Assembly: GCF_052324685.1 (NCBI RefSeq)
Contig: NC_135212.1
Location: 973,501-1,037,500 of the forward strand
DNA length: 64,000 nt
Direction of reading: 5' to 3'
Source: Brachyhypopomus gauderio
Taxonomy: Eukaryota > Chordata > Actinopteri > Gymnotiformes > Hypopomidae
How positions within the stretch are numbered: position 1 is the first letter of the stretch; each line of letters opens with the position of its first letter. The position numbers and the translations under genes were made by a program. Under the pieces are notes generated by a model. The model saw only the letters and a program-made list of their open reading frames with translations. It was not told the DNA's origin and did not search any database. Shown piece after piece: positions 5,101 through 55,900 of the stretch.

Positions 5101-5323
5101 GCCACGGTCTATGAGAAGCAATTGTGGATAGACCGGGGAGCCACAGTCACTAAAGGACTCTGGAGGAGTCCAGAAGGGAGAGTAGTTTTGCCCTTAGAGA
5201 AGATGAAATTGATACTATGCGAAGCACATGGGCCTACTCACTCCGGAGTGTCGGCCATGGTGACCAAATTAGAATGTTTATGGTGGCATCCATACCTCAG
5301 AGACCACGTGAAGCAACACAGAC
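2113..5323 (+). pseudogene. pol: Retroviral Pol, first part: protease, reverse transcriptase, RNase H, integrase N-terminus
   Basis: Pol continues in the gag frame directly after the gag TGA, so expression would need stop-codon readthrough as in gammaretroviruses; an in-frame ATG also occurs at 2122. The protease has a DTG active site (Asp codon at 2197). The reverse transcriptase has the LPQG motif and an FVDD catalytic motif (about 3663-3677). RNase H acidic residues are visible in SDGS (about 4590), AEM, YTDS and GNEAAD. The integrase zinc domain keeps its two histidines (HGPTH, about 5227), but the paired cysteines and the first catalytic aspartate are absent where the frame changes near 5310-5323. 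Everything upstream of that point looks intact. Confidence 0.92.
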
Positions 5324-6634: not shown

Positions 6635-6635
6635 G

Positions 6636-19453: not shown

Positions 19454-22422
19454 ATGGTTGGCTGTGCAGCATTTGGATGTACCAATCGGTCCGAGAAAGG
19501 GATCCGGATGTATGGGTTTCCAAAAGATACCTACAGAAGAAAAAAGTGGTTGGCCCAAATCAGTAGAAGCAACCTGACCATCACAAGAAATTACAATAAC
19601 AGAAAACTATGTGCAGTAAGTTCTGTTCATACACCATATGTGCAGATCATGATTTATTGTTTCATTTTTGTGTTGCATTGCGTACCTGACTTCAAATAAA
19701 GATATGATATGTGGTCTGAGATTGTGAGGAATTTAAACTCATTCTGCAGGCACACTTTGAGGGAGAACAATTCACGACAACCAAAACAGGCCAAGTGAAA
19801 TTGAAAGCTGATGCTGTTCCAACCATATTTATCCATCGTCCTGAGCCTAAGAAAAGGAAGGCCCCTGCTCTGAGAACCCCAAAATCTCCTGTCATTTCTC
19901 TTGCAGTGACGAGTGACCACACATATTGTCCTAAAATAAAATTTGGTATGAATGATTTTAAATAATAATTCATACGATTATAATTAATAAAGTTAATTTG
20001 TATTTCAATTGCTAACCCCGTTTTTTAAACCTAACAATGCCATGTAATAATTTCAGATATTACTGAAGGAAATGAGGAAAGACAGAGAAGGGAAAGTGAG
20101 GGAAGTGAAATAAGGGAAGGTGGAGGCTGTGAGGAGACTGAGAGAGGTATACCAGAAAGCAGTGAGCCAAGTACGAGTGTGCAGCATCCAAGTGAGCCAG
20201 GGGCAAGTGAGAAAGACCTGAGGGAGAACCTAAAAACACAAATAAAAAGTTTAGAAGCAGCCCTTAAACGATAAAAAAGAATAAATGCAGTCCTACGGAG
20301 AAGAAATTTAGTTAGGGAAAAAAAATTTGGGGCAGTTTTTTCTAAAACTCAGATGAATGCAATTAGAATGAAGAGCAAGAGGGGCATCAGATGGGGAAAT
20401 GACATCATTAAAAAAGCCATAAAACTCCATTTTGCTACAGGCGCAACAGGCTACAAGCTCCTGCAGGACATGAAGATTCCTCTCCCTGACATTAGAACCC
20501 TGCAAAGAAGACTACAGTTTATAAAGATGGAACCAGGAATATTGGGGGAAGTGTTTGACATGCTTAAGCTGAAGGTAGATAGCCTAAATGAGATGGAGAA
20601 GGAATGTGTGCTGACTCTTGATGAGATGTCAATCACACCAAGCGTGGAACTGCACCTGGGAACAGGAAAGCTTTATGGGGATATGACTTTACCTGGCCAC
20701 ACAGGAGAAGCAACGCATGCATGTGTTTTTATGTTGACAGGGAGCACAACACGCTGGAAACAAGTAGTGGCTTACCACTACAGTGGTAACTCCACTGATG
20801 GGGCAGTTTATAAACCACTCATTTTAGACATTATTCACAGAGCAGACTCCATAGGGCTACATGTTATTAATATCACCACTGACATGGGCAGCCCTAATCG
20901 GGCAATGTGGAAGGCTTTCGGAGTGGACCATAATAAAACATCTATTCCACATCCAGCAAAACCAGACAGAAGGCTATACTTTAGGCCAGATGTCCCACAT
21001 CTAGTTAAGAACTTGAGAAGTGCCCTTGTCCGTGGACAGACGTTTACAATTCCTCCAGATATAGTGGAGAGGGAGAAGCTCTCTTCCTGTGAAGCTTTGA
21101 TTGGCCCGTTGCAAGATTTGGTGGCTTTTCAAGAGGGGATGACACTAAAAATAGCTCCAAATGTGTCACATAAAACCCTTCACCCCAGTCATTTTGACAA
21201 GATGAAGGTAGGCCCTGCATTAAATGTCTTTAGCAAAACAACAAGTGCCGGGCTGAAATACATGGTGGAGCAAGAACAACGACCTGACTCTTACCTGACA
21301 ACAGCATGGTTCCTGGAGCAGGTGAACCACTGGTTTGACATCATGTCTTCTCGCCACCCAGTAATGGCACTGAGCAGGCATAATAACGATCAATATCATA
21401 AATCAATCATGTTCCTTCAGCAAGTGATCCAGTTGTTTCATGGTCTGAAGATTGGTCGACAGGGTAGCTGGAAACCTGTGCAAACAGGAATCATTATGGC
21501 AACATCCACAATATTGTCAATCCAAGAAGACATGCTGGCCCAGGGACACTTTTTTGTGTTGACAAGCAGGTTTACACAAGACTGTCTTGAAAATCTGTTT
21601 AGCTGCATAAGACAGAGGAATCCAGTCCCAACTCCTGTAGAGTTTCACCAGGCACTAAGATCAATATCAGTTGGACAGTTTCTTATTACACTAAAATCAG
21701 GAAGCTATCAGGAGGATGACAGTAGCCTATTGGCAGACTTCCTGGATGCTAAAGAGGAATTTCCCAGTCCTGGCATCAGAGTGGATGACCTGTTGGAGCA
21801 CAACCCTGTGACTACACCCTCACCTGACTACACAAAAATGGAGACCTGTGCTCTCTATCATCTGACAGGGTACATTGTGAATCAAGTAATCAAATATTCC
21901 AAAATTTGTAATGAATGTCAAATTGCAATTAAGCACAGAAACGAGAGCCCTGAAGAAGAGCACAGTATTTTACTAAAATTGAAGGAATTCAAGTCAGGTG
22001 CACTTTGTCGGCCATCACAGGAGGCTTTTGATCTAGTTCGGAAAATCGATCAATTGTTTCGAACTAGGACCAGTGCCTCACTTATGGCACTCCCTAATGC
22101 AAAACATTTAATGGAGATAGAGGCTAGGCTCTTAGACAGTAGGCTTCCCTCATGCCATGATGTTAAACAAAAAATAGCTAACAGATACATCAGGCTGAGG
22201 TTGAGAATCGCAGCAAAGCACATCCAGGCTGAGAGGAAGAAACACACACTGTCCAAAACTGGCCATTTTGGAAGTAAAAGCCAGATGAAAATGTCTAAGA
22301 AAAGCCAGCAAAGCCATGTAACACCTGTAAATACACCCCCATCAAATACTTTCATTGTTACCATGAATGTGCTTGGTCTGTCTTTAACTCCTACAAATGT
22401 CCTGCCACCCAGTGGTACTTAA
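19454..22422 (+). pseudogene. THAP-domain P-element transposase, three exons, one nonsense codon
   Basis: Exons by splice consensus and phase: 19454-19615, 19750-19945, 20057-22422 (907 codons plus stop). Exon 1 and the start of exon 2 form a C2CH THAP zinc finger: Cys pair in CAAFGC, then C-A-A-H-F across the intron, followed by the family signature AVPTIF. Exon 3 starts with a Glu/Ser-rich linker and a Leu-zipper-like coiled coil that is interrupted by TAA at 20272-20274. The catalytic region follows, with LTLDEMSI and ITTDMGSPNRAMW carrying likely catalytic aspartates. The 689 codons from 20353 are uninterrupted. It would cut and paste the element; THAP binds the ends. The single TAA is the only defect seen. 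Confidence 0.88.
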
Positions 22423-29938: not shown

Positions 29939-32900
29939 TTTTCTTTAATCACAGGAAAGCATTGATAGAGGCCAACAACATTGAGATTCATCAGTCAGTC
30001 CAGGACCTGGTGAGTCATGAACTTAAAATATGTTAATATAAAGTTAAACCTTTTCGTAGACCTTTTGGAAGTTACTTGTGCCATTTGACCATTGTGTCAG
30101 TAGCCAGCTACTTTGAAAAATATTGAGAAAAAACTTTTCATCACTCAGTCTTGCCAGACACCTCTCCTGCAGCAGAAGTATTTATCAATACCTTGAAATA
30201 TACATAGCTATTAGATTGTGAGTGATCTTGCAATATTAATTTTTAGTCTGGAGACGATTTTGGAAATGTTGTTTTTTGCTAAATCTGGTACACTCTTTAC
30301 ATAGAAAGTGTTTTGGATATGAGAGGTTTGTTCTTGTAATTTTTTTTTGATAATTAGCCAGCAGCCCATGACAGTCCTGGTGTCTGGAGCCCCCTAAGTG
30401 GACAGTCCACACAAAGTCTGTCGGGAACTACAGATGAAGTCAATGTAAGCTTGAACTGCTTTATTTCTTATTTCCAAGATAGTGATGATCCATTTTGATC
30501 AATAATACATCAATAATGTCTTCCCTATGTGTTTCTGTGTTTTATTAATATTTCACTGAGTGCACTTAAATATGTTAATTTAGTCAGGACATTGATATTT
30601 TTCTCAAATAATTTTTAAATGCACATTTTTTGTGTTAGGTTTTGTCTTAAAAATATCTTAAGAGGTAACCCTGTTACATGTTAACTTTGGACACATACAG
30701 TTTGGTTAGTAGAATGTATGGGAATTTATTTAGTTATCTGTTTTATAGGTAACTTATGACAATTCTGAAGATTGGTCTCCTCTCAGTAAACAACAGAGTT
30801 TGTCAGGAGTGGAAGTCTCTGTAAGTTTTGGCTATGTAGCTGAACAAAATATTCTTTGTCAATGATTTGAACTTTGACAAGAATCTGACTTGTATTAGCA
30901 ATAACAGCCTTTTTGTTTTTACACAACAGAACCTGAATCATAATTCCTCTGAATGCGACTCTGACAGTAGCTCCGAAGATGCACACAGTGGTGGTTACGT
31001 TAGCGTAAGTGCAATGAGCTTTTCAACTTAAAAAAACAAAACAAAAAAAGCATAACCACAGATTACGAACCGAATCATTGAAATGTCACGTGAGGTGAAT
31101 TGGTTGTTACCTTAAACTTAACCAAACTGCTTTATTTATGTAACTTTAACTCTTAATCTCATCTCTAACCGTTAGCCTTTTGACTGCCTGGTTTAACCCC
31201 CTTGCACGCAAACTTTACCTTACATTTCCCATCAAGTAAATTCATAATGATCAAAAACATTTGGTCTATATTGTACATGAACATCAAATTCATATTGTGT
31301 ATCTACTGTTTGCATCACGCTTACATTAAGTGAAACATTCAAAGTCAAGATGCCTTTTTTTTTTGGCTGCAGCATTATGTCAAATAGAAAATATCTTAAG
31401 TCGTGTGCATAATTTCATACACATGTCCCTGTAATTCAGCAGCACCTTGGTACTTTTGGGAACATCGAGATCTCTACTAAAATTTGTGTGCCAGGGTCAT
31501 CTTTTCATTGTATCATTGTTTTGTAGTCTATGTGGCACATATGTTTTTAATTATTTTTTAGAAAACAGCTGATGAACTCTCTGAAGCTTGGACTCCTATC
31601 AGTGGACAGTGCTGTCTTTCAGGAGAGGAAGCATCTGTAGGTATCAGTTATCATGTGTGTACATTATCAGGGTATGCTCTGTTAAAGGCAAAACAAAAGC
31701 CTTGTTTTCTTGTATTAATGTGTGCAATGATTTGAAGCTGCATAGTTTGAAAATGATTAAAAATGTCGTCATTGTTCTCACAAAACAGAACTTGATGTGC
31801 CATAGTTCTGACCATAACATTGAAAACATCTATGAAGATACTCACAATGCTCAACACACAACTGTAAATATACTATATATGAATGTATTAGTTCATAGAT
31901 GCTATATATCACAAGCTTTCTGCTTTTTGTTTCTAATTTGGTATTAGTTCTTGTGCATCTCAAAAATCAGATAGTTCCTCTGAAATTATTATACTGGAGG
32001 TTACAACAGGTGTACAAAATCAGTTTATTTGTAAAATGTTTGTTGGGATATGTATAACTATTTTTGGGTCTATGTTTAATACATTTCTATTATTTTATTT
32101 GTTATAATCAGAAACTTCTTTTTTTGTTCCCTATTCCAGATCCTGCAGGCTGACTGTGGTGATTCTATGTCCAGGTGTCCTACATCCCCACTCTTGTTTG
32201 AGGATGAATGTTCTATGGAGTGTGATCTTCACTTCAGTGATCGACCAAATTCGAGCCCATTATCAGAGTCATTAAGTGACTTCAATCCTGATGACTTGGA
32301 TGACAGTGTCGGTATGAGTATGTTGGAACCAATGCAGTCTTTTATTGAGTCTGACTCTGAATCCATTCTTGGCAGTGGAGAACAATTTTCCCCTGTATAT
32401 GAAAGCAGTCCTAACGAGTCAGTAAATGAGGGAGAAGATAGTAATGAAAAGTTTCCTCAGTTAAATGAAGAGCCACTTTACACTGGTTCACGACTAACCA
32501 AAGCTCAGAGTTTTTTACTTATAATGTCATTTGTTTTAAGACACGCACTCACTGGTGTGGCCCTTTCTGATCTTCTAGATTTGATTAATATCCACTGTCC
32601 AGAAAACATAATGTCAACATCAAAACATCTGTTCTTAAAAGTGCTTAAGCCAATACAGGGTCACCTACAGTGTCACATATACTGTCCAAACTGTGAGTAT
32701 TACATCGGTGACAAAGTTAGTGAAGGGCAGTGTACAGTCTGCAGCACAATGTGGGATAAAGACAGTTCACTAAAAAATGGAAACTTCTTCATATACTTAC
32801 CAATCCAAACACAGTTGGAACATCTTCTTCAAAGACAGGATATTGCATGTTGTCTCAAGTTAGGAAATGACACATTCAGTTCTGAAAATTATGATGACAT

Positions 32901-34659
32901 ATGTAGTGGTAAACTCTACCATAATCTGAACAAAGAAGGAGGCCCGCTTGATGGTCCTCATGGATACTCCTTAACACTCAACTGTGATGGTGTGCCTGTG
33001 TTTAAATCATCACTGTATAGTATTTGGCCATTACAAGGGATTGTAAACGAGCTTCCTTACCCTGTGCGCAAAGAAAACGTTTTGCTTTTTGGCTTGTGGT
33101 TTGGCAGTAAAAAGCCAAATGTTAATACATTTTTAAAACCTTTCACTCTGGAGTGTCAGAAGTTGTCAACTGTGGGCTTTAAGCTAAAAACAAACAGCAC
33201 TGAGGAACAATGTAGAGTTGTGGCAGCTCTTATGATGTGTGATTCAGTTGCCAGGCCCATACTACAAAACATGACACAGTTTAATGGTCAATATGGGTGC
33301 AGCCTCTGTCTACATCCTGGTGAACAAGTTCAAAAGGGAAATGGTACTGTCAGGGCATACCCATATAAAGATGTTCCAAAAAGGGACCACACTTCAACCA
33401 TAAGAGATGCAAAGGAGGCTCTGCGCACCACAAAATCTGTGAGAGGTGTTAAAGGGCCCACATGTCTTATAAACATCCCACACTTTGACATCATAACTAG
33501 TATGCCTCCTGACCATATGCACAATGTACATCTTGGTTTAGTTCGTCAAATGGCAAGCATGTGGCTGGACAGTGAAAACCACGAGAAACCATACTACATT
33601 GGTAACCGAGTGAATGAACTTGATGAACAACTCTTACTAATTAAGCCTCCTTGCAATGTGACAAGAGTCCCTCGATCTCTTCAGCAAAGAAGGTTTTGGA
33701 AGGCTAGTGAATGGCAGAACTGGTTACTGTTTTATAGTATATTTGTGCTAAAAGGAATTCTGCCCCAGATATTTTATCAACACTGGTTACTTCTTGTCAC
33801 ATTCATGTTCTTACTGTGCAAGGACATCATTACAACAGAGGAGTTAAAAAGATGTGAAAATTTGGTTGTAGATTTTGTCAAACAATTTGAAACACTGTAT
33901 GGAAAGCAGAATGTGTCATTTAATGTACATTTATGTCTTCATTTACCTGAATCTGTAAAGAATTGGGGGCCTTTGTGGGCACATTCAGGATATATTTTTG
34001 AGTCATTTAATGGGGTATTACTAAAAATGTTTCATGGCACTCAGTGTGTTCCTTTACAGATAATGAAAGAATTCACTTATAGACAAGTATTGCCTCTTTT
34101 GAGAAATGATGCACTGAGAAATGCAGTGCCTGAATGCATCCAGCTGTATAACCACTTAAGTGGTCAAAAAAGACTGAGGCAGTTTGAAAGAGTAGCAGAT
34201 CAGGTTCTTACCCTTGGTTTGCATTATTCTCGAAAACTTACTAGTGAAGAGTTACTGGCCATGAGAGAGCAACTTTCAGTCACAGTGGATACAGTCGTGA
34301 AAATATTCAGTAGAATTCTAGTCAATGGACAACTGTATTACTCACAAGAATTCACCAGAGTAGTGAAAAGGAACAGCTTCACTGTTTTGCTGGAAAATGG
34401 ACACATAATCTCTGTTTACTACTACATCATAGTAGAGCAACAAGGCAACAGAAAATGCTTTGCTCTTGGAAGAGAGTATGATAGATCACACAATACATTG
34501 ATTAATACTGAAAATGTAGTTGGTCTGAAGAGAGTGTTGCGGGGCAGGAAACAGATATTTCATGTGACAATGTTTAAAAGAAAATGCTTGCTAATTGATC
34601 TGCCACGATATCCTAGCCTCTATGCATGTATACCGCCAAGATCCAGTGTGGAGGACTGA
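29338..34659 (+). CDS. Tnp2/CACTA-like transposase, eight exons, intact
   Basis: Exons with consistent phases: 29338-29447, 29955-30009, 30358-30444, 30749-30820, 30930-31004, 31562-31636, 31789-31863, 32140-34659, giving 1022 residues without a stop. Exons 3-7 are all phase 0-0 and 72-87 nt, three of them encoding W-[ST]-P-[LI]-S-x-Q...LSG peptides. The last exon has an acidic leader, a zinc-ribbon-like Cys set (CPNCEYY ... CTVC, about 32689-32745) and an RNase H-like transposase region. Its likely acidic residues are in NCDGVPVF (about 32980), PPDHMHNVHLG (about 33510) and YIFESFNG (about 33990). This pattern fits Tnp2-type (EnSpm/CACTA) transposases. A tcaataaaac poly(A) signal lies near 34843. 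Terminal repeats of the element were not found. Confidence 0.82.
29740..29863 (+). repeat. SINE/MITE-tail-like fragment in intron 1
   Basis: Contains gttgttcctgccttgc..., actgggaccctagaaaccgg and ataagtggttaagataatga with a gaatgaata tail, resembling widespread fish short interspersed repeat tails. Family not identified. Confidence 0.4.
29868..29934. repeat. (AT)n microsatellite
   Basis: About 65 bases of AT dinucleotide in the first intron of the transposase gene. Confidence 0.95.
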
Positions 34660-40045: not shown

Positions 40046-41147
40046 GTGTAGGGGCTTGGGGGCCCCCAGACGTTGAGATTTCTGGTGATCTGAGATGTTG
40101 ATGCTGTCATCCAGCTGTGTCTTGGCATCACTCTATTTGTGACTATGACTTGACTGGAAAGCAATGTCTCAGTGAGCCCTCATGCCTGTGGTCACCTCTG
40201 AACCCCTCCCTTTAGTTATGCTGGTATAGATTAGTCTGCCGGAGCCACATGCTGATCACTGGCACGTGAGCTACGTACATTTAAATCAACGATGGTTTAA
40301 ATTCATGTCCACTCAGTCTGTATTATCTATCTTCTTGCATGGCTCTACCCAAGACGATTGGATACAGGCACCTGCCCTGCAGGCACCTGGGGGATGGTCT
40401 GGCTGCCGGTGGATGTGCTGATACCGGGGTTCACCTGGGGAGTAACACTGCAGTTGGAGCCTACAATACCAGCATCACTGCTCCGACACGGAATGAAAGC
40501 CTGGCATTCATCAACAGACATTTACAGTGACAATATCAAAACCCAGAACTTTCAATTCTACCTTTTACCTAGTCTGATTGTGTGAATTATGTGTGACTTT
40601 GGCTTGCTCATTAGGGTTCTGGACCCATAGTATTGTTAACCTTGTAAACCCTGTAAAGCTGCTTTGCGACAACTTGAGTTGTTAAAAGCGCTATACAAAT
40701 AAACTTTGATTGATTGATTGATACTTAACCTGTCCATTCTAAATATGTGTTTATGTTTTGCTAACATATATGGGCCGAATGTTGACGACCCCTCCTTTTT
40801 CCACAATATTTTCACTGCACTCTCTGATCACTCTGACACCAAACTAATAATAGGAGGAGACTTCAACTTGGTACTTGATCCAGATATCGACAGGCTCAGT
40901 ACAGCAGTGAGTCAAAGGAACTGGCAGTCTGCAGACACCCTAAAACAATATATGAACGATTTTGGGCTCTCTGATGCGTGGCGTTCACAACACCCCACTC
41001 TCCGGGACTACTCTTTCTTTTCGGCAGTACACCACTCACATTCTCGTTTAGACAACTTCTTAGTTAGCAATTCCATTATGACAGATGTCACAGACACTTG
41101 TATTCACCCTATCACTATCAGTGATCATGCACCGGTCTCTCTCTCAA

Positions 41148-41430
41148 TTCAATTTTCAATTTCAATAAGCTTTATTGGCATGACCATATTCAGTTACAGT
41201 ATTGCCAAAGCAATGTTATCATTCAACATGAATAACTCATTGAAAAATATGAACAATTCTAATTATGATGAACTTGAACATGAATTTAAAGTTGAAGAAG
41301 TGAAAAGAAAGGAAAGCAAATAAATAACAAAAGTAGAGGAGAAAAATAAATAAATAAACAGATCAACATAAATCAGTGTGTTTACAAACAGGGTATGTGT
41401 GTGTGCGTTTGTGTGTGTATGTGTGTGCGT
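41148..41430 (-). repeat. 3' tail of an unidentified LINE/SINE (antisense)
   Basis: Starts caattcaattttcaatttca then ataagctttattggcatgac, the inverse of a retroelement 3' end with a poly(A)-signal-like aataaagc and an A/T-rich tail. It ends in GT-rich low-complexity sequence near 41390-41440. It abuts the broken L1 endonuclease. Confidence 0.6.
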
Positions 41431-41689
41431 GTTTTTGTGAAAAATCAGTACAAATGTCATAATACACAGTCACGAAGTTAGGACTCATGTAAAAGTCAGT
41501 ACCAAAAACCATGTCCTAACTTTTCTGACGATGCTACGGTGTTCAGAGAGGTATAATGTATCTCTGTAATTGATATCGCGAAAGTACAAAATTTTAACAA
41601 TCGTCAGAACAAATCTGGGTGTGGGTGTGGCAATTTGGCTGAAGTGTGTGCACGCCACCAGCGGATTATTGAGGAACTGCAAGCAAAGC

Positions 41690-41882
41690 CACGCACACTT
41701 CGGAAGACGCGTCAGCTATTCCCGGATGTGACGTCAGTAGTCTACTAGGAAGCATCCAATCCATCCAATACTCATTAGATAAACAAATAATCCTTCGAGC
41801 GTTCGCGGCAAAATTACGTCACGTTTTTCCCGGGAAAATTGGAGAAGTTGGACGGAGAGCTTTTATTACCTGCGTGGATGTG
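41690..41882 (+). promoter_or_regulatory. Promoter and non-coding first exon of the SET-recombinase gene (putative)
   Basis: Compact CpG-containing block unlike its AT-rich neighbours. It holds a perfect CRE palindrome TGACGTCA (41729-41736), a second acgtca-type site near 41817, two ccaat words near 41756-41768, and a donor-like gtggatgtg|gtaagt at about 41881. The coding exon starting at 43914 has an acceptor (ccctag at 43891-43896) with no exon upstream of it in frame, so a non-coding first exon here is plausible (inference). Confidence 0.5.
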
Positions 41883-42263
41883 GTAAGTTAAAAAACATAT
41901 TTTTTTCTTGTTAATGTTTTTAGAGTATTTGACAACCTTATTATATACGTGTCTATATTAATTTGTTTTTCTTTCTTCATGCGCTTAGAACAAATTACTT
42001 TTAAATGCGTTACCTAGAGTGAAACACTTTGCTGTTAAATTCGTATGTTTAACCTGGCAAGTGTCCGTCCAGTTTATCAGACTTAGATTTCTTTACGAGT
42101 TATTTTATCAGTATAAGTAACAGCAGGGGATCCGTGTTATGTAGTTGTTTTTATATAAATTATGTAATAAATTTGACATCTTCGAATTAGATATATCCAA
42201 ATCTCCACTTAGTCGATTCAGCTCTCGTCAGTCATCATAATTGGGTTTTTGTTACACGCCGCT

Positions 42264-42616
42264 TAAAGCTGGGCGTACACTGTGCGATTTTTGGCCCATT
42301 TTCAGCCGATTTTTCACTCGTGTGACTATCTTTGCGATCGGGCTGAGTTTCGGCTCAATAGCGTGTCGTGCATCGTATAGTTTACACAGGTAAACGAGGA
42401 GCGATTCACACCTCACGACCAACTCCCGATCAGAAATCGCAGCGTCGCAAGAATATCAAACATGTTTGATATTCAAATCGCTCCTCGTGAGAGTATCGCA
42501 CTGTTGAAGCAGCTCTACGAGCCGACTCTCCTTTTAAACCCTGCGATTTAGTCGTACAGTTTGAGATGGAGCTGAGTACACCATTTAAAATATCGTACAG
42601 TGTATGCCCAGCTTTA
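42264..42616. mobile_element. MITE with about 28-bp inverted ends
   Basis: 353 bp; left end taaagctgggcgtacactgt, right end the near-inverse acagtgtatgcccagcttta. Internally fold-back: a 24-bp perfect palindrome at 42451-42474 and an inverted pair gaggagcgatt / aatcgctcctc. No coding capacity. The superfamily cannot be fixed without a clear target duplication; PIF/Harbinger is one option. Confidence 0.85.
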
Positions 42617-42689
42617 CTCTTGATCCGTTTCAGTTCCTTTGCGCGAGCGGTATTACATGCTTTTTCAACACGGCAGAGTGGGGGAAGGG

Positions 42690-43210
42690 TGGAGACAGTT
42701 GTGTAATGGCGGACGTCAGAAAGTTGTGCTGAATTTAAACATATATTTACACATATATAATTTATTTAATTGTTAGGAAAATGTATATTTTGAATGTATA
42801 TTTTGAACATTTCCAGAAATATTCCAAATACTTAGTCGATTGAGATCGTAATACGCTAACCCTAATCCTGTCCGCATTAGAATGGGGGAGGAGGGGTGCC
42901 AGTTACGTTTCTCAGCTTTGCAGAGTGGGGGAGGGGTGGAGACTAAGCAGAGAGGGGGAGGAGTTAGGGTTAGGGTTAGGGCTAGAGTGGCGAGTTCTGA
43001 ACTTTGAGGGATTTAGCTGGGCAGTGCAAGTTGCTGTTCGGGTGGGGGAAGGTGCACTGGTGACGTTTGCAGTTGTGAAATGGCGGACGTCAGAGAGTTG
43101 TGCAGAATTTAAACATATATTTACACATATATAACTTATTTAATTGTTAGGAAAATGTATATTTTGAATGTATATTTTGTGAAATGGCGGACGTCAGAGA
43201 GTTGTGCAGA

Positions 43211-43273
<63 letters not shown>

Positions 43274-43440
43274 GTATGTAATTGTTAGGAAAATGTATAT
43301 TTTGAACATTTCTAGAAATATACCAAATATTTAGTCGATTGAGATCTGTAACCCTAATCCTGTCTGCATTAGAATGGGGGAGGGGTGCCAGTTACGTTTT
43401 GAGCTTTGCAGAGTGGGGGAGGGGAGCAGAGGAAGCAGAG
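42690..43440. repeat. Imperfect tandem duplication with AT microsatellite and short TTAGGG run
   Basis: Three partial copies of a segment containing aatggcggacgtcag, attgttaggaaaatgtatat and cctaatcctgtc...gcattagaatggggg. They lie at about 42705-42950, 43070-43180 and 43180-43440. A 59-bp (AT)n sits at 43213-43271, and three ttaggg units lie at 42965-42983. No gene. Confidence 0.8.
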
Positions 43441-44279
43441 TGAGGTATTCTGTGAGAACGAATCGCTTTATAAATAGTGCTGTGAAAATAGGGTTTTTTT
43501 GTTGTTTTTTTTTTTAACTCAACTTTAGTTTAGGAAATAATGGTTAATTGCAGTTTTAAAGAAGCAACGATAAACAGACATTCACTTACTGGAATTATCT
43601 AAAGTATTTATGTATTGATATTTCCAAATACATATTTTAGAGGCGATCAACATAAAGGCAACATATTTAAGTTAAAGCTGTAAAAATTGTCAGTGTCTGG
43701 TCTACATATTCAAAAAGAACATCCAGTATTCTGAAAAGCACGAGGGCCTTTTTGTGTTTGTTTTGAAGTTATTATGCTTTTAGAATTTTTTATTGGAATT
43801 AAGATTGGAATTGGAATTAAGATGTTTTTAGGCTGACCTAAAATGAATGAACATTTAATGTTTATTTCCATGTAATTCAGAATTTTATTGTCCCTAGACA
43901 ATCCTGTACAAACATGTCAAAAAGAAGAACCAGGCTTAGTCCGGTAGAAGATGCTACTGGGCATGTTATTTCTCAAAAAGATAAACCTTGGTTTGAAGAA
44001 AGACTCATAAATGCATATAAAGGTAAGCCTTAATTCATGAGTTTTCCTTAATGACTTCATGATTTGGTTTAGCACATGAAGGTGAAGTTCTTAATTGAAG
44101 GTTTTCAAGTAGACACATCTCTTCATCCACATTTCACTACATTAAGCCCACACCACCATACCCAGTCTACACCTGGCCCCATTGACACCGTTAATGTGTA
44201 CTCCGTCCCACCAGTTCCATATAAATTTTTACCTATTTCATCATCAAACACTAATTACAGAATAGATCCATACTGGCAC

Positions 44280-45180
44280 ACTGTCATGCCCAACTCCACC
44301 CCCCTCGATTGTCCTGCCTTGTTTCCCCATTGCCATAGTTCCCTTCTGTCTGTCACGCCCCTGTCCTCAGTGTTCCCACCTGTGTCTTGTTTAGTTTCCC
44401 TGTCCCAGTGTATTTTAGTCCTTCTGTTTCAGCCATCTGCGTCAGTCATTGTGTTTGTGAGTACTCCTTTATCCTGCCCTGCCTTGCTCTGCTCTCCATT
44501 CCGTGTAGTCTCTCTGTCTTTGTCTAGGTTTCGTTTTCTAGAGTGCTTTGTGTTTTTACATCTACCTGTTTTCCCGTGCGCTGATCTCTCCTTGCCTGCT
44601 TATCGTTTCTCCCTTGCTTCCCCAGTATTCCGGTTTGGTCAGTTCTGTTTGGTCTTCCTTATGTTCCTTACCATGTTTCCTACTTGCCCGTGACATTTCT
44701 GTTTCCCTCTGAGCTCATTGTCTTTTGCTATAGTCTATTTTCCCTGATCTAGTGTTCCCTACCTGGTTATTCTCTCGTAGTTTTATGCTTTCAGTCTAGT
44801 GTTGTCCTTCCGTCATTCCACCCTCCCGATAAGTGTTCTGCATTTAAGAATATAACACGAACACAGTAACTAGATTCCTGTGTTCTGTACCCCTAGTGTT
44901 TAAAACCGTATGTTTTATTCTGTTCTTTTATCTCGGTTGATTATATTAGAAATATGCATTCGTGGTTGCTTGTATGTCTGTCGTCTTGAGTTGAACTAGG
45001 TCTCTGGTAGCATGTTTAATATTTTTGTTCTGGTAGTGTGTTGCTTGTTTGCTGTGTCATTAAGTTTATGTTCCCTTTAGTGTACATCCCCTTCTACCTG
45101 ATTGTTCTCCTTGGTTCTATTGTGTTTATTTCATTTAATAAATTATTTTAAAACTTGCGGTTGCGTCACACCCGCCCCTT
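44280..45180 (+). repeat. Dispersed non-coding repeat in intron 1 of the SET gene
   Basis: CT-rich body (ccctgtcctcagtgttccca, cctgtgtcttgtttagtttc, gtttgtgagtactccttt), an aataaattattttaaaact signal near 45138, and a gcggttgcgtcacacccgcc tail. The gagtactccttt word and layout recur, inverted, at 48128-48612. It has a 205-codon open frame (44076-44693) of biased Ser/Leu/Phe composition that I do not regard as coding. Confidence 0.55.
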
Positions 45181-45304
45181 GATACGTTATACACACCCAG
45201 TGACTAACGCCATCCCCAGCCCCACTTGCACTGTTAATGTCCACCTATGCTATAAGGCACCCTGTGTAACTATAACTCACGGACTCCACTCTAGCTTTAT
45301 TACC

Positions 45305-45644
45305 TCATCCTTACACCCTGACCAACCAACCTCATCCTTAAACTAAACTTAAACTTTATTGATCCCACAAGTGGAAAATTCAGTTCCCCCGGGACCACGG
45401 TGTAAAGCACAGAGATCCCAGAGTGGCCACACCCTGACCAACCAACCTCATCCTTACACCCTGACCAACCAACCAACCTCATCCTTACACCCTGACCAAC
45501 CAACCAACCTCATCCTTACACCCTGACCAACCAACCTCATCCTTACACCCTGACCAACCAACCTCATCCTTACACCCTGACCAACCAACCTCATCCTTAC
45601 ACCCTGACCAACCAACCTCATCCTTACACCCTGACCAACCAACC
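45305..45644. repeat. 27-bp VNTR interrupted by a retroelement tail
   Basis: Unit accctgaccaaccaacctca then tccttac (27 bp). After the interruption there are one 27-bp unit, two 31-bp variants with an extra accaacca-type step, four more 27-bp units and a partial unit (45430-45644). One unit lies before the interruption (about 45315-45341). The unit is a multiple of three, so minus-strand frames stay open; these are not genes. Confidence 0.93.
45342..45429 (-). repeat. Short LINE/SINE tail inside the VNTR
   Basis: aaactttattgatcccacaa, ggtgtaaagcac and gagtggccacac match a longer copy at 63780-63875. This is the inverse of a retroelement 3' end (gggatcaataaagt). Confidence 0.7.
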
Positions 45645-47429
45645 TGTTCTGCAGCCCTTTGCAACATATATCTCAATTACTTTTTTTAACCCAATAATTT
45701 GTTGGTTATTTTATACAACCATTTCTATTTGATGCCTGAAGATGCTTAGTCGTTACTGTCCTCTGCTTACATGATCAATGTACATGTTAGAGCTCTTTAT
45801 TTAGCAGCAGCATCCTCCAAAATCTTTGCATTTTAGATTCATTGTCTTTAAATTAAACAAAAATGTCCTTTACATTTAATTTCTGTTCTATTTTAGGAAG
45901 GGGAGTGTTTGCCCTCATGCACATTGAGAGTGGATGCTTTGTGCTTGAATATAAAGGAAAACATCTCACAAAAGGAGAGTTTTAAAAGACAAAGAAGATA
46001 TACAGAAAAACAAAATGGGTTTTTGTTTGACTTTGAGTGGAATGGAAGCTCATGGTGGTACGTCACGCTGTAAATTTCTAAACATTTCTCTGTTAGTCTA
46101 GTTGCTAACTTGCATGCAAGATAAAATCACATTGTGCCTGAAATGTGCTGATTTGTATTTTTATTTTTTCAGGGGTTTATCTATAGTAGATATTAAAATA
46201 TTTTGTGCAATTGGTATATTTCCTGTAACGTACTACTAATCCATCAATGTTCATGTATTGAGTGGAATACATCTAAGATAAGAATGTTTCTTTCAGCATT
46301 GATGCTTCTGAAGAGGATGGAACACTTGGCAGGCTTGTGAATGATGATGCAAAAAATGCCAACTGTAAAATGAAGAAAATTGTAGTTAATGGCAGGCCAC
46401 ACCTGTGTTTATTCGCGATCAAGAATATACTCCCGGGGGAAGAAATAACATACGATTATGGAGACAGTGCTTGGCCGTGGCGTTCACTGGTGAGTAAAAA
46501 AAAACACTGAAAAACAATATATGGGAACGATCATCTCTTGCACCATATTTGGGCACCTGTTTGGGTAGTTTGTTTTTGTATCTGAGATAGAGATGTGATG
46601 GATGACGGTGTTTAGCTGAATGTTAGTAAAATGTTACACAATTTTACATGATTTTGTATACTAATTGACTTTGTTTTGTCATAAAAGGTTAAAGTTAATA
46701 TTTCAAAGAAAGACATGTTACAGAAAAAACGTTTTGGTGAACCTGAACCTTCTCTGGCTTCTGAGAGACTGGAACAAATAAACGCTATTTCACAGGTACA
46801 ATCTGTCTATATACTCAACACTCACTTAGATGTCCTGAAATAACATTCAGAGGCACTGTTGGGGTGAAATTTAAATAACCTGCTAAGCCTTAATGTGCTT
46901 TGACTTTTTATTAATAAATTTTCTGAAGGTTGATGGCAAAAAATTCTTAATGGGAAATTTTTAGACTGGTGTAGAGTCTACAATGTCATAACAGTTGTCT
47001 GTGTGATGTCCTAATTGTTTGTGTATTTGTTTTGCTGTTTAACATTTTTCTATGTACTAAACACATTTAGTTTTTGCCAATAATGTTTAAGATAGCAATG
47101 GAATTTGTATTTTTACATAGTTTTACAATAGCTGAGATGTGCAGAGAGCATATTTACCAATTCCGACCTGCTGGAAGTGTAACTTGTCCTGATATTGGAC
47201 TGGACCTGAAAGTGTGTGTGTGTGTGGTCCTAATTATTCACCTTGGCGTAATTGATGTTTAATAAACTGTAATTGATCCTGCTTTAACTACTAATTGTGT
47301 TTTTTCTGCTATTGTGGCATTATTAATGGTGATTATGAAATATGTGTGTTCATTTAGAATGTCAGCAGTGACATGCAAGAAGACTATAAGGCACAGTCTC
47401 AATTACGGACACTATTTCTGTACAGTACT

Positions 47430-48977
47430 TACCGGTATTCTGTACGGCATCATATTAGGCACATGCTAAAACATACGGTCTACAAGAAAAGTAAAGGACG
47501 CGAAACAGTGATTTTTAAAAGTTTATTATACTACTTGACAAAACACACACAATTTTCTTCTCCTCTTCTCCCACAAATCCATCAAAGTCCTCATCTTCTG
47601 TGTCTGAATTAAAAAGCTGCGCAATTTCACTAACGAGCACTCCGGGTTCCAGGAGTCACTGACTATATCTGAGTCAGTCTCGTTGCCAGGTAGCTGTTCA
47701 GCAATGAGGCCGGCTTTCGCGAAAGCTCGGACAACAGTTACAGCAGAAACTTTGGCCCACGTGTCCACAATACATTCACAAACGGTGGCATAACTCGTAA
47801 CTCGCCCGCCGCTGCCTTCCAGTTTTAGTAAACGTGTGTTCGCCGTCTATCATCCATTGCTCCCACGCCACTCGCAACTTTAAATGCCCCATTTACGCCA
47901 ATGTCCAGCGGTTGGAGTTGTTTGTTTAATCCTCCCGGAATGACAGCAAGCTCAGAATTAATTTTCTTCACTTGCCTTTTAACGTTGTCTGTGAGATGAG
48001 CACACATAGTCAGATCAGCAGGGATAGTGATGTGTGGAAAAAAGTGAAAACGAAATGAAATCTCTGTCTCGACTTCTTTACTTGACGCAGTTCATTTTCC
48101 TGTTTCGTCCATTTCCAAACCATAGATTCTGTAACGTTCTGCGTAGCGCAGAGCAGGGAGGCGGACACAAACGCTGAGGAAAGCGAGATTTATTAAGGGA
48201 AATTCCAAACTCTGAGTCAAAAAGGATGGCATGGGTCAGATTATTAAGGGAGTCCGAACATTGAACAATGACATTTTAACAAAAGGAGTACTCACAAAAA
48301 CCCGGCAGGGAAAACGGAACAGGCTGAAACACACGGGGAAACACGAATACAAACACAAGAGACCGCGAACGTGAAGAGAGATACATGCATAGCACAAAAC
48401 AACCGATAACCAGACTGGGGGAAATACAGGGACTATATAAACATGGAACTAACAAGACACAGGTGAGGACGATGATAACAAGGCGTGGCAGACAAGGGAA
48501 ACCGGGGCAACAGACGAGCTGGGCGGGATCGAGGAGCAGGGAACAACACACACACGAGGGAACAAGGGAAACCGGAGTGACAGCTAGGAGAGGGGGCGTA
48601 GCCCTACGTGACAGATTCATTTATGCCAAATTGTATCGCAGCTGCTCTATTCCCGTTTACAGCTGCATAACTGATAGCCTGTAGCTTTAAGTGTGCCTCG
48701 TAAACGTGTCTCTTCACTGGTGCCATTTTCGAGGGTTCTGGAAAAACAAATGTTATTTTGCAGCATACCTGTAGGTAAGCGTAAGTACTGGTACTGTACG
48801 TATTACGTAGTGTTCTTTGATTGGTTTACGTGGGGTACGTTCTGTACGTATTACGTTCCTGTGTCAGATATCGGAACTCAGTACTTGTATAAGGCGCACC
48901 GGATTATAAGGCGCACATCCGATTTCTGGGAAAATTTTTGGCTTTTAGGTGCGCCTTATAGTCCGGAAAATATGGTA
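47430..48977 (-). mobile_element. Tigger (pogo/mariner) DNA transposon remnant in intron 4 of the SET gene
   Basis: The right end reads gcgccttatagtccggaaaa then tatggta, preceded by a second half-site aaggcgcaccggattataag, typical Tigger terminal sequence. The left end near 47430 (accggtattctgtacggcat) is a diverged match. Only the transposase C-terminus survives on the minus strand: 48007-47825 (CAHLTDNVKRQVKKINSELAV, PGGLNKQLQPLDIGVNGAFK), a break, then 47768-47560 (WAKVSAVTVVRAFAKAGLIAEQ, NETDSDIVSD). Interrupted by the insertion at 48128-48612. Non-functional. Confidence 0.85.
48128..48612 (-). repeat. Dispersed non-coding repeat inserted in the Tigger remnant
   Basis: Antisense member of the CT-rich family. 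On the minus strand it reads from gtcacgtagggctacgcccc through tttttgtgagtactcctttt to cgcctccctgctctgcgcta near 48135. Its orientation and position interrupt the Tigger sequence between the transposase remnant and the right end. Confidence 0.6.
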
Positions 48978-51887
48978 ATTTGTGATGGGTGTAAAAGTGT
49001 AAAAGTAGTCATCTATGCATTTTTCATTGTTCTATCTTTTTAGACTGCTGTCATGGATGAATCCACTGATTACTCTGAATGTACAGACTACAGTGATGAA
49101 GACTATGAACCAAATATAGACAGTGAATCTTCAGACCTTTCCAGCTGTAGCAGGTCTGACATGCTGAGTAATATTTCGCCCAAAAAACTAAAGAGAAACA
49201 ATGATAAAGACAGTGTGATAACACGAATCCAGCAAAAGGGGGCAGTCAAAGCTGTCAACTCCCAGTGTCAAGTGTCTTCTTCAGAAATTCATGCAAGTAG
49301 CTCACGTGAAAGCTGTCCTACAGAACCTGATACCAGCACCCCTTCAGATCAGGGTTGTGTTCATGTAGTTCCAATGCCAACCTCAAGTAAAAGCTGGCGA
49401 TACGCAAAGAAGCAGTACTGCCTTTATTGTGAGAAGCCATACTCTAAAATATCAAGACACCTGCAGTATGTACATCACAATGAACCAGACGTAGCAAAAG
49501 CATTCAGCTTTGATAAAAAATCAAAAGAAAGATGAGTTCGATTACGTTTGTTGACCACCAGAGGCAATTTTTTGCATAATGCTTTGATATCAAGTAGTGG
49601 CAAAGGAGATTTGGTTGCCCGTAGGAGACCTCAGAAACTAGGATCCACTCAAGAGTTTACACACTGTATACACTGCCAGGGTCTATATGCAAGGAAGTCA
49701 CTCTGGAGGCATATTAGAAACTGTCCACAGAACCCTAAAGTTGATGAGCCTGGGAATAGAAAAAAGATGGTTCAGTCACTCAACTGCATGGCACGTGTTC
49801 CTCCTGATGTTAGCAAAGCATTTTGGAAAACTGTTATGTGTCAAATGAAACATGATTAAGTTTCTGCTGTAATTAGAAATGATAAATACATATTACTTTT
49901 TGGAGAACAGATGTTCAACAAGCTGAACCCAAGTTCCACAAAGAATGATTACATTAGTCAAAAAATGAGAGAGGTGGGACGTCTACTCTTGGAGGCAAGA
50001 AGACTGACACCTATTCGGTCTATGGAAGATTTTGTCTTGCCATCAAATTTTCCCCATGTCATAAAATCTGTGAGAGCTGTTTCTGGGCATTGTGAGAAGA
50101 CCAACACTTACAGGATTCCATCGTTGGCTCTGAAGCTTGGCCACAGTTTATCAAAAATAGCAACTTCAGTGGAATGCAGTGCAATAATAACGGGCAGAGA
50201 GAGGCTGGCTGAGGATGCACGCAGCTTCAGGGTTCTCCAAGAGCATAAATGGAATGAGTCCATTTCAGCAGCAGCAGGAACAACTCTTAATGAGGCAAAA
50301 ATGAACAAACCTCAGGTTTTGCCCTTCACAGAAGACGTCAAAACTTTGCACTCCTTTTTAAATACTGAGATGACAAAATATCAGCATGCTTTGAAGGACC
50401 ACTCTGATGTTAAAACCTATGCAAGCTTATGCAAGTTGGTGCTTGCCAAAGTCATCTGTTAAAAAGAAGGAGGGGTGGAGAGGCTTCAAGGATGAAGCTG
50501 GAGTCTTATGTTTCAAGAGTAAAATCACCAGTTCATGAAGACCTTGCCTCTGGTCTTAGTGATTTTGAAAAGAAGCTGTGTGAACACTTCCAAAGAGTAG
50601 AAATTCGTGGCAAGAGGGGCAGGAAGGTGGCTGTGCTGCTGACACCTGATATGGTCAATTGCATGGACCTCCTCGTCCAGCATAGAGATATCTGTCAGGT
50701 TCCGGAGGAGAATGTACACCTGTTTGCACGTCCAAACGCTCTTTCATCTTATCGTGGATCAGATGTTCTGCGTGAGTTTGGAGAATCCTGTGGTGCAAGA
50801 AATCCATCAGCCCTTTCATCCACAAAATTAAGGAAGCAGATTGCAACTCTGTCAACGGTGTTGAATTTGAAAGACAATGAAATGGATCAGCTTGCCAGTT
50901 TTTTGGGGCATGACATTAGGATTCATCGCCAATACTACCGTTTACCTGAAAGTACTTTGCAACTTGCCAAAATGAGCAAGCTTCTTATTGCAATGGAAAG
51001 AGGGACACTATCAGAATTCCAGGGTGCTACGTTAGATGAAATTGTCATTAATCCACAAGGTAGGGAACTTTTATAATATGTAAAAACTGTGTGTGTGTGT
51101 GTGTGTGTATATATGTATGTATGTATGTATGTATGCAAATGTTTTTTTTTCTTGATCAGATGAAATTGAAGACTCTAATGCTGATACATCAAGTGATGAG
51201 GCAGAGTCAGATGACCCTCAGCCAAGCTGTAGCTCCAGAACTCCTGAACCATCACCCTCTGAAAGTGCACAGTTCTCAAATCCACATGGTAAGCTAGCTC
51301 ATTTTTTGTCCTCTGTTAGCTTCATTATCTTTCATGTAGGCATATGTTTGATCAAAATTGTCTCATGGTTTGACTTATGACAATGTCTTTGCATGTTCAT
51401 GAAATGTCCACTTTATTATATTTATATTTAAGATAACATTTCCTGTTCTTTAAGATCGGGGTAATAAAGGGATGAAGCGGAAACATGACTTGTCTCTTGA
51501 CCAAAGTCATCAACATTCCACACAGACTACTGGTAAAGAAACTTAAACTATGTTTTGTTTAGTTTTTTTGTATGTAATCTGCAGTTATAGGTTTTCAAAC
51601 ATTTAGCATTTACTGTATTTGTGCTTGTGTGAGAACTGGGAGTGCATTTCACAGTACATTTGTCTGCAGGCATCACACAGAGCAAGAAGAAGTGGTCAGA
51701 TGATGAGGTACAAGCTGTTGAGAAACATCTAATGCGATTTATAAACAGTTGCCAAGTTCCTGGTAAGAGAGACTGTGTCTCATGCCTACTATCTGAACCT
51801 GATGCTCTTAAACACCGTGACTGGACTGCCCTCAAATACTATGTGAAAAACCGAATAGTGGCTCTGAAAAGAAGACAGAGTTTGTAG

Positions 51888-52880
51888 TCTCCAAGATTTT
51901 TCTTAAATAAAGTTTCTTAAAATTGTTTAACCTCAGTTACACTTTTCAGGACAATTCGTTGCACTTTATCTGCTTTGTTTGCACTTCATCTGCTTATTCA
52001 TTTTATTTCCTTTTTGAGTGCATTTTTATTTATTAAATAATTTCCCATTTTGAACAGTATGTAATCAGTAGTGATCACAGTGACTAGTTTTAGGACAGTC
52101 AGTTAGTCATGGGATTAGTAGGTGATGAGATTTTCATTATGTGAATTGGCCCTTATTAAAACTAGCAAAGTTTTAAGTTTACCAGATTGGTAGTGTATGT
52201 GGCAGATATGCATATGGCATGCAGAAATCAAAATGTGGTTCAGAACTGAATTAAAAACAGTAAAGTAAAGCTGGATTCCTGGTGATTTGTATTATTTAAT
52301 GCAAAGTATTGAAACTTCACTTTTATAAATGCAGGAAATATGACTATATAAAGGATTTGCAATTAACAACCTACTGCTCTTGTTTTTGTGAATAAGGCCA
52401 GAACATTTACTTCTGTAAATGCTAGAGTAAAGCACTTTGGTTTCAGGATATCACACTTTTAAAAAATTGATGGACTCATTTAGATTCAAAAACATCATTC
52501 GTCTCACCTGTTTTGTGTTTCTTAATCTGTGGCTAGTGTGTCCTTGACTTGTACTGTACCAAGTGTGTAACTTGGTCCTTGTATTTACTATGTCCTTATT
52601 ATGTTGGTAGTGTGAGACTTAAATGAGTGTGTGCGTACATGTCCTAGAAATGAACATAAACCTGAAACTGTCCTAAAATATACCTTAAACCAGAAAAATC
52701 TCAGCTTTTTGTAATAAGCACTTAGTGAAAAAATCAACAGATAGACATCATGTGGGTGCTATATGCAACAAAAATCTTGCTTGTTGTGTCTCTAGAATAC
52801 TCAGAAAGGCATGTCCCCATTTGGTATGGTTTCCCCTGGTGTTCTGATATTTCACGAAAACTCGTATGTGTGTGTTTGTG
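51888..52880. other. Unassigned spacer
   Basis: About 1 kb downstream of the composite gene. A poly(A)-like aataaag lies near 51906. Otherwise AT-rich unique-looking sequence without a supported gene, then a (TG)n run at about 52866-52900. Confidence 0.6.
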
Positions 52881-52900
52881 CGTGTGTGTGTGTGTGTGTG

Positions 52901-55900
52901 CTACTCACTGTCCCTCATGTTATGTAAGGTAGATACATATCTCCCCGCTAAAGTGCTGCTTTCTTTCTTTTCTCCCAGGAGGATGGGGAGTTTGTCATTA
53001 TTAGATAGGGACTTAAAGTTGGGGTGAATCAGCTCAAATTTTGTGAAGTACATAAGACGTATTTGTTGAAAAGTTTCACATTCAGTGAGGAAGTGCAGCT
53101 CTGTCTCTATAGTTACACTTTTACACTGTTGGCAGAGTTTCTGCTCTCTGGGCAGCCATGATTTCTTGTATCGGCCGGTCTCGATGGCCAGGCTATGTTC
53201 ACTAAGTCTGTACTTTGTCAACGTGGTTCTGTGTTTAGTATCAGTCACTGTAAGCAGGTAGTCTGCTACAGTGTACTGTCGTTTTAGGGCCAGATAGCAC
53301 TGCATTTTGTTTTGTGCTTGTGTTTGTGCGTTTCAATGGGTGATGTAGTTTTGTTTTTGAAGTGTTATAATTTGGTTTGGCCTGATTGATTGTATTCCAG
53401 TCTGGTCCTGATGTGGAACAGTGTTAGTGTTGGTTAGTGTCAGGACCAGCTGTGTGAGGGGACTCTTCTCTCTGCTCAGCTCTTGGCATTGCAGGGCTTT
53501 GTAGTGGTAGGAGTGGGGGTCACTGTTTTTTACATGTAGCCAATATTTGATACTCCTTTTTTGAATTTTGAGTAATAGTGGGAATTGGCCTAATTCAGCT
53601 CTACAGGCATTATTTGTTGTCTTCCTGTGAATGTGCAGAATACTTTTACAAAATTCTGAGTGCATTATTTCAATTGGGTGTCCGTTCCATTGTTCAAAAT
53701 TGTGGTTTACGAGTGGCCCCCACACCTCACTACTATACAATAGAATTGGTTCTATGACGGACTGGAATATTTTTAGCCAAATTTGAATTGGTATTTGAAT
53801 TTGAATTTGCCGTTTGATTGCATAGAATGCCCTGCGTGCTTTCTCTCTCAGTTCATTAACTGCTGGATTGAAGTTTCCAGTTGAACTAATCTTCAAACCT
53901 AAGTAATTGTAGACTGTACAGGACTCTAAGGTTTGTGACCCTAGTGTGAAATGTGATGTGCTTCCCTGAGATCTGGCTCTTTTTTGGAAGATTATTGTTT
54001 TGGTCTTTTTCAAGTTCACTGCCAGGGCCCAGGTCTGGCAGTACTGCTCCAGCAGGTCCAGGTTCTGCTGCAGCCCCTTCTCTGTGGGGGACAACAGAAC
54101 CAGATCATCTGCATAGAGCAGAAACTTGATTTCTGAGTCATGTAGAGTGAGACCAGGTGCTGCAGAGCGTTCTAAGATGGTGGCCAATTCATTGATATAT
54201 ATGTTGAATAATGTTGGGCTTAAGCAGCAGCCTTGTCTCACTCCACGTTCCTGGGAGAAGAATGTGCTTCTTTTGTTGCCAATCTTTATACCGCACCTAT
54301 TCTTTGTGTACATGGATTTAATAATGTCATATATTTTACCCCCTACACCACTTTCTAATAATTTGTAAAATAGACCATTGTGCCAAATTGTGTCAAATGC
54401 TTTTTTAAAATCTATGAAACATGCAAATATTTTGGCTTTTTTCTGGTTAACATGTAGATCAATTAGGGTGTGTAGGGTGTAAATATGATCTGATGTGCGG
54501 TGATTTGGTATGAATCCAATCTGGCTTTTACTCAAAACACTGTGCTTCATAAGGAAGTTTATAAGACTTGAATTAATGATACTACAGAGTAGCTTCCCCA
54601 GATTACTGTTCACACAGATGCCTCGGTAGTTATTAGGGTTGAATTTATCTCCACTTTTGAAAATCGGTGTTACAAGTCCTTGATTCCAGATATCAGGGAA
54701 GTGACCTACACTCAGAATCATGTTGAATAGTTTGAGGATGGCCAATTGGAATTTTTTGCTTGTATGTTTTATCATTTCATTTAAAATGGTGTCAGGCCCA
54801 CTTGCTTTTTTTGGTTTTAAGGTAGATATTTTATTTCTAAGTTCCTGCTCAGTAATGGGGGAGACCAGGAGATTCTGGAACTGTTTTAATGCCCGTTCTA
54901 ATATGTTAAGTTTTTCAGTTATATGTTTTTGTTCAGGTATTGTATTGGGTAATTTATTATAGAGTGACTTAAAATGTGTTATCCATGTCACTATTTTGTT
55001 TCTTCAGATTTAGGTTTATGAAGAGTGTTCCAGTGGTTCCAAAAATTATTTGTATTGATGGACTCCTCAATTAGTGTCAGTTGTTGTTGTGTATATTGAG
55101 CTTTTTTGAGTGTACGTTTGTAGAGTTTCAGTGTTTCACAGTACTGAAGGCGTAAATCTGCATTGTTTGGGAGTTTGTGTTTTTGGTTTGATAGTTTTCT
55201 TAATTCTTTTCTGATGTTTTGACATTCTGTATCAAACCACTTATTATCTGTTGGATTTGGTTTGTTCCTTAATTTTCTTAGGTTGCAAATTTTGGCAGTT
55301 TTAATAAAAATGTGATTTATATTCTTAACTGCAAGATTAATGCCTTCGTTACTGTGAGTGTGTGTGGTGTCCAGAAAGGTGTCTAAAAGTGTTTGAATTT
55401 CTTGAGTGCTGATTGCTTTCTGGAACTCTTCTGCGTTGTTTTGGGCCCATCTGTATGGTCTCCTGATATTAAACAGCTTACTGGGCTGTGTGAGTGCAGT
55501 GTTGTAATTCTCTGTCCTTTTAATGAACACAGTGATTTGGCTGTGATCAGACAGAGGAGTTAGTGGTTTAACAATAAATGCACTGAGAGAGAAAGGGTCT
55601 AAATCTGTTATGACATAATCTACTGTACTGTTGCCAAGAGGTGAGCAAAAGGTGTATCTCCCCAAAGAGTCCCCTCGTGTCCTACCGTTGACGATGTACA
55701 GACCCAGATTTCGACAGAGCTGCAGGAGGTCCTTCCCATTCTTGTTTGTCTGTGTGTCAGAATTATATCGGGGCAAATTATTCAAGTTTCTTGGGTAATG
55801 ATATCCTAATATGTGATTGTTACCTTGTTCTGTGTTGAGATCAGGTAGAGATCCGGTACGTGCGTTCAGATCTCCACAGATCAGCACACTTCCCTGAGCC

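Follow-up and report, generated by a model that had tools for sequence, protein, structure and literature searches.

The window analysed here, a stretch of 64,000 nucleotides from Brachyhypopomus gauderio (C2:973501-1037500, in a searched genome of 796.5 Mb), carries one gene region whose parts follow one another in the order KMT5A-like SET domain, linker of tandem phase-0 exons, two zinc-finger motifs, tyrosine recombinase (YR)-like region and C-terminal helix-turn-helix-like domain (Table 1). A sequence-only reading of this DNA had described SET exons with a YDYG motif and a WCIDAS motif across an exon junction, then a long exon with two zinc fingers and a LGHDIRIHRQYYR region, and a final Myb-like exon; all of these were found at the positions it gave, the fingers as zinc-finger-like motifs, the LGHDIRIHRQYYR region within the long exon, and the final exon as a Myb/homeodomain-like domain. 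The element to which the gene belongs runs from about 41,431 to 52,867 and is larger than the 43914..51887 span of that reading. We consider it likely that the window holds a degraded copy of a large YR DNA transposon, which elsewhere measures ~16-20 kb with nested insertions included.

Table 1. Features of the element copy in the window; positions are counted from the first base of the window.
Feature	Position	Strand	Remarks
Left flanking GT-rich tract (target-side microsatellite)	41393..41430	.	GT tract at the matching place in 4/4 other left ends read
Left end, arm of imperfect 18-bp inverted repeat	41431..41448	+	16/18 match to reverse complement of right end
Exon 1	43914..44022	+	start codon ATG, N-terminus of SET protein; also present in L031, L036, L023
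Intronic minisatellite, 27-31 bp units	45429..45645	+	longer in other copies
Exon 2, first half of SET domain	45897..46057	+	out of frame in window copy
Exon 3, second half of SET domain (LGRLVND, EITYDYGD)	46297..46489	+	main SET exon; Pfam SET E 4.8e-11
Exon 4, 36-codon phase-0 linker exon	46688..46795	+	
Remnant of tandem linker exon	47358..47384	+	array otherwise lost in window copy
Exon 5, zinc fingers and YR	49044..51059	+	broken in window copy
Exon 6, acidic linker	51160..51288	+	matches P0001 residues 697-747
Exon 7	51455..51532	+	matches P0001 residues 746-772
Exon 8, C-terminal Myb/homeodomain-like domain and stop	51670..51887	+	
Right end, arm of imperfect inverted repeat	52844..52861	+	element end ~52867
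Right flanking GT-rich tract	52868..52900	.	8 bp uninterrupted in window

The window copy is dead, which the sequence-only reading had missed along with the element ends, the (GT)n tracts and the tandem exons. Its exon 2 has a 2-bp deletion relative to all nine other copies read from its own family (family A, below), its exon 5 is disrupted by a TGA (49533-49535), a TAA (49857-49859) and a frame change within 50414-50462, and the tandem linker array is almost gone. All seven internal donors read GT, and six of the seven acceptors read AG as first placed; that of exon 7 also does so once the exon start is moved one base earlier, to 51455. The eight exons had been read as keeping compatible phases, and this stands for exons 1-5 of one copy, on contig C114, but not for the window copy, which is not open. 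The C114 copy reads open from the SET domain into the recombinase: its exons 1-5, when spliced, give 863 amino acids with no stops and with AG/GT at every internal junction (the splice omitted the three 105-bp array exons of this copy, whose inclusion would keep the frame). The possibility that C114 is a haplotig of the window copy was rejected, as its flanks differ from those of the window.

Searched at the protein level with part of the recombinase exon, the genome gave matches at 66 sites. Nineteen of these form family A (96-100% identity), in which an open frame of 676-677 codons is retained at 17 places, the window and C55 being those without it; the family-A YR exon matches the B. gauderio protein P0001 (LOC143500340) with 100% identity across 99% of the query. 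More diverged are family B (67% identity, six places, 611-639 codons), the C19/C71/C158 family (65%, three places), families C and D (both 62%, two and seven places) and the C92 family (61%, three places), while the remaining matches are weaker, down to 31% identity. Between families A-D, nonsynonymous divergence (dN) is 0.27-0.52; the synonymous rate could not be estimated, and dN/dS is therefore not given. A first whole-locus DNA search scored 2 of 4483 candidates, and its matches understate the copy number.

Of the 43 best recombinase places, 34 have a same-strand SET match within 60 kb upstream, as do 40 of all 66; one match is downstream and none antisense, where chance would give ~0.35% per place. 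These SET counts are minimum values, as 150 of 172 candidates were scored. No SET match was in reach (60 kb) of the C19/C71/C158 family, and the domain may thus be dispensable there, or have been missed. Two distant YR relatives, at C35:333962 and C70:401001 (36% identity), sit within open frames of 1732 and 1772 codons and likewise have no SET match within 60 kb. At five other places, two SET exons lie ~4.85 kb apart (L034 and L035, at C7:11757500 and C20:4133000, and matches at C11, C13 and C164); a weak match to the C-terminal domain follows further on in L034, and none of the recombinase places is nearby.

The ends of the element could be read in several copies. At the right, CTGATATTTCACGAAAACGCGTAT (from which the window differs by one base) borders directly on a GT repeat, beyond which the flanks are unlike, a pattern present in all nine readable copies (the window, C114 and seven fetched copies; a tenth reads N). 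Without interruption, the GT repeat extends for 8 bp in the window and for 14-46 bp in the eight other copies. At the left, four fetched copies have a GT tract and then TTTGTTTTTGTGAAAAATCAG, and the window has its GT-rich tract before near-identical sequence; a fifth fetched stretch proved not to be an end. The background frequency of 12-bp GT tracts is 42 starts in 139,777 positions (the window and 11 loci). The two ends match as an inverted repeat at 16 of 18 positions, which none of 5000 shuffles equalled, and the orientation relative to the GT strand is constant in every end read. Genome-wide, 18 family-A elements have the left 261 bp, and one further match is partial (76%). A pattern of the right end and its GT tract hit 16 places, with C22 and C55 not among them and C50 left out of account, and none for the reversed control; because this pattern contains the GT tract, the count is no independent test of the GT association. 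A search for element ends, proposed with the sequence-only reading, thus returned a repeated unit with defined ends: both are fixed in 15 elements, the window copy spanning 11.4 kb and the others 15.9-20.0 kb, nested insertions included.

As judged from their sequences, the copies are interspersed and near identical, with fixed ends that lie in GT tracts where read, and the element looks like a tyrosine-recombinase DNA transposon that targets GT microsatellites. In the 1.5 kb examined for the right end of family B, no GT tract was found. For the copy on C10, the L054/L062 stretches (C10:5216900-5217900) were considered as a left flank and rejected, since the left end of that copy is at C10:5214353; these stretches inside the copy are probably a nested insertion. 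Pieces of non-long-terminal-repeat retrotransposon endonuclease/reverse transcriptase adjoin both element ends in the window (40718-41320 and 53336-55003, minus strand).

The assignment of the exon 5 region to the tyrosine recombinases is supported by conserved residues and by the predicted fold. Across 101 homologues, Arg is invariant in box I (two candidate residues, both 101/101) and in box II (101/101), while the Lys is kept in 99, the box III His in 100 and the Tyr, residue 662 of P0001, in 100. In place of the His of the box II HxxR motif, a position that varies within the tyrosine recombinase superfamily, 100 of the 101 have Thr, as the TKLR pointed out for the window copy had suggested. 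In a fold search, the predicted YR structure was nearest to XerH, XerD and topoisomerase IB, and it shares the catalytic fold of the superfamily (Xer, Cre, lambda integrase, topoisomerase IB). Of the two checks proposed for this domain, the structural one came out in favour of a recombinase, but the profile comparison did not: against solved structures, a four-family alignment gave no YR match and a single weak one, to a sensor kinase (E 0.01), and the amino acid sequence alone thus does not reveal a YR.

Other profile collections gave a similar picture. In Pfam-A, a match to PF00589 (Phage_integrase) was seen in only one of four members, at E 0.059, and across the YR regions of ten scanned proteins no model exceeded its cut-off; NCBIfam returned a single match to an unrelated regulator (E 0.071), and PHROGs a single match to a family of unknown function (E 0.14), located on the SET part. 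Among 169 pattern matches in viral contigs, no YR relative was confirmed, and a BFVD fold search gave one match below E 0.001, which is nameless, with nudivirus VLF-1 at 2.0e-3. With the YR region thus invisible to Pfam-A at its cut-offs, many fish gene models of the element are called either 'uncharacterized' or by their SET domain only, and may pass for host KMT5A-like genes.

A protein database search (7992 candidates scored) yielded 384 proteins at E <= 0.001, of which 120 were listed. Among these 120, a SET label is carried by 52, from ~30 genera (29 fish and one frog), and the models without it include another frog and a polypterid fish. The join of SET domain and recombinase in one gene, as first proposed, is supported by these models, with SET preceding YR in all 36 of the 120 that have both motifs under a stricter test; the same order is common to diverged B. 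gauderio families and to gene models of many fish and a frog. Some models labelled as host genes (a LENG8 homologue, PAK1, NCK2a; P0008, P0029, P0046, P0048 and P0049) contain the element, and are either exonised insertions or annotation artefacts. In zebrafish, Region-2 of the sex chromosome Chr4R is described as holding four SET-domain genes in a gene tree that also has SET-less members (PMC11075544); these may be members of the SET-YR element.

The nearest solved relative of the SET part, taken from the family-B protein P0002, is KMT5A/SETD8 (E 4.1e-27), which is also its nearest fold (model mean pLDDT 68). KMT5A is a monomethyltransferase that acts on lysine 20 of histone H4 (H4K20) in nucleosomes. 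The fish domain shares its fold and keeps its catalytic Tyr residues, and differs from it by an Asp in place of the His of the NHS motif, by a one-residue insertion nearby and by being joined to a recombinase. Changes of the NHS-type His inactivate several SET enzymes, and here the replacement by Asp is found in 34 of 34 proteins with full SET and YR parts (of 45 aligned), and in 49 of 49 under a looser test. It is thus quite possible, if short of probable, that the SET domain is catalytically dead and serves only to bind nucleosomes or proteins, whether to guide integration or to protect the element. However, the Asn preceding the Asp, the EYRG Tyr and both YxYG Tyr are kept in all 34, and the invariance of the Asp itself looks like a constrained change rather than decay.

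Whichever role it has, the SET part is conserved, in frame and inherited together with the YR part, none of which would be typical of passenger DNA: the SET and YR distance matrices of the 34 proteins correlate at r = 0.899, the highest of 2000 permutations reaching 0.179. The domain may be a writer of chromatin marks or a mere nucleosome-binding tether.

The SET and YR parts are separated by tandem arrays of exon-intron units whose number varies among near-identical copies, an arrangement that is new to us. In family A, the unit is ~382 bp and contains one 105-bp exon with AG/GT borders and phase 0, open in 80 of 80 units from nine copies; C114 has 3 units and the others 7-11 (the array of L031 being truncated by the locus end). 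The P0001 model opens partway through an array exon and continues directly into the YR exon. Family B has a 1158-bp unit with a 102-bp exon, open in all 25 units read (five loci), which encodes a 34-residue repeat that occurs three times in P0002; the SET-to-YR distance of 17-47 kb would correspond to an estimated 14-40 units in each copy. With phase 0 at both borders of every exon, units can be present in any number without breaking the frame, and the array would be an unusual way to change the length of a protein tether between otherwise near-identical copies. An exact 8-mer is repeated in the linker of 40 of the 49 SET-bearing proteins among the 120 homologues, isoforms of one gene being included in the 49. 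The arrays were noted at L024-L028, L017-L023, L031 and L036, and in P0002, P0005, P0073 and P0114.

These arrays bear on whether SET and YR are instead two genes of one element, the SET gene being separately transcribed cargo and the joined protein an artefact of gene prediction, which we regard as unlikely. P0001 is in line with such an arrangement, as it lacks SET and starts within a linker exon; the SET motif is absent from 71 of the 120 homologues, and the host labels (PAK1, NCK2a) of several joined models suggest that models can be wrong. On the other hand, in the C114 copy the phases are compatible, the frame is open and all junctions are AG/GT, there is no reason for linker exons to stay open, as they do in both families, in a non-coding intron, and SET-labelled joined models come from ~30 genera, although the end of a separate SET gene was not searched for. 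Within the family-A arrays, divergence is equal for exons and introns (0.0150 vs 0.0160) and highest at first codon positions: apart from the 80 open frames, which recent amplification could also give, the units show no purifying signal. From the gene models, we infer that B. gauderio transcripts join SET to the recombinase.

A domesticated host gene family (KMT5A plus a former recombinase) spread by segmental duplication rather than mobility would account for the strong conservation of both domains, the open frames and the presence across fish and in frogs, but is hardly credible given 15 units with two identical end points at scattered places, unlike flanks wherever read (nine right ends, five left ends), several diverged families in one genome, and broken and intact copies side by side.

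Among known systems, SETMAR also fuses a SET domain to a DNA transposon enzyme; it is a single domesticated primate gene with a DDE-type mariner transposase and a different SET class, whereas the fish fusion lies inside a mobile element and occurs in several families. The YR retrotransposons of the DIRS/Ngaro type encode, next to their YR, a reverse transcriptase and an RNase H; no reverse transcriptase domain was detected in P0001, P0002 or the window reading frames of >=120 codons inside the element. Cryptons are, like the fish element, DNA transposons with a tyrosine recombinase, and since some CryptonV families are described as inserting specifically into microsatellites (PMC8869645, with reference to Repbase Reports 2012), a behaviour matched by the fish element where its ends were read in GT tracts (from filled sites), CryptonV is a natural candidate for the closest published kind.

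Filing the element as a Crypton is nonetheless not justified by this comparison of descriptions. The Crypton catalytic tetrad is given as R-H-R-Y (PMC3212892), of which the fish YR has R, R and Y, with the His replaced by Thr; animal CryptonA and CryptonI are described in the same source as lacking terminal repeats, whereas the fish element has imperfect inverted ones. By description, the fish element may further differ from Cryptons in its SET domain, tandem-exon linker, C-terminal helix-turn-helix-like domain and size (16-20 kb or more), and Pfam DUF3504 did not match any of its proteins scanned against Pfam-A. The YRs of endogenous nimaviruses resemble the fish enzyme in having C2H2 zinc-binding and SAM-like N-terminal parts and in inserting into simple repeats, their targets being telomere repeats and ribosomal DNA; they differ in their viral gene context and arthropod (TAACC)n target, and no mention of a SET domain was met in their description (PMC10871703). 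In the open-licence literature searched (titles and abstract starts, with Repbase Reports outside its scope), we recognised no description of a SET-YR element, which is no proof of absence.

For the transposon reading that we prefer, we propose that the YR binds the imperfect inverted arms at both element ends and excises or copies the element as a circle, the junction of which would place a GT-rich spacer between the arms, in a loxP-like layout. This junction might then recombine with genomic (GT)n, which would explain the constant orientation relative to the GT strand. The SET domain, on its stretchable repeat linker, could engage nucleosomes at the donor or the target, and might methylate histone or the recombinase, or only bind. 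It is a tentative suggestion, about which we have considerable doubt, that a single protein carries out recombination at GT microsatellites and also methylates the nucleosomes found there, or the chromatin of the element itself, the reach of the linker being tuned by gain and loss of exons. If true, it would describe a mobile element with its own chromatin writer and a tether of variable length. Host chromatin silences transposons, and the long retention of a histone-methyltransferase domain beside a recombinase suggests that this transposon acts on chromatin in order to move or persist. If the YR works on GT repeats as proposed, it would also be a site-specific integrase of natural vertebrate origin whose target is a common simple repeat.

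Other parts of the window appear to contain further mobile-element sequence. An 859-codon open frame at 32080-34659 has weak matches to Transposase_21 (E 1.1e-4) and DUF4218 (3.5e-4), both under the curated cut-offs, and is perhaps a CACTA/EnSpm-like transposase. A 715-codon open frame at 20275-22422, with TNP-like RNase H domains (E 8.7e-28), is a P-element-like transposase, and three neighbouring open frames of 1113, 440 and 767 codons at 2113-8870 have, by eye, the look of pieces of an endogenous retrovirus.

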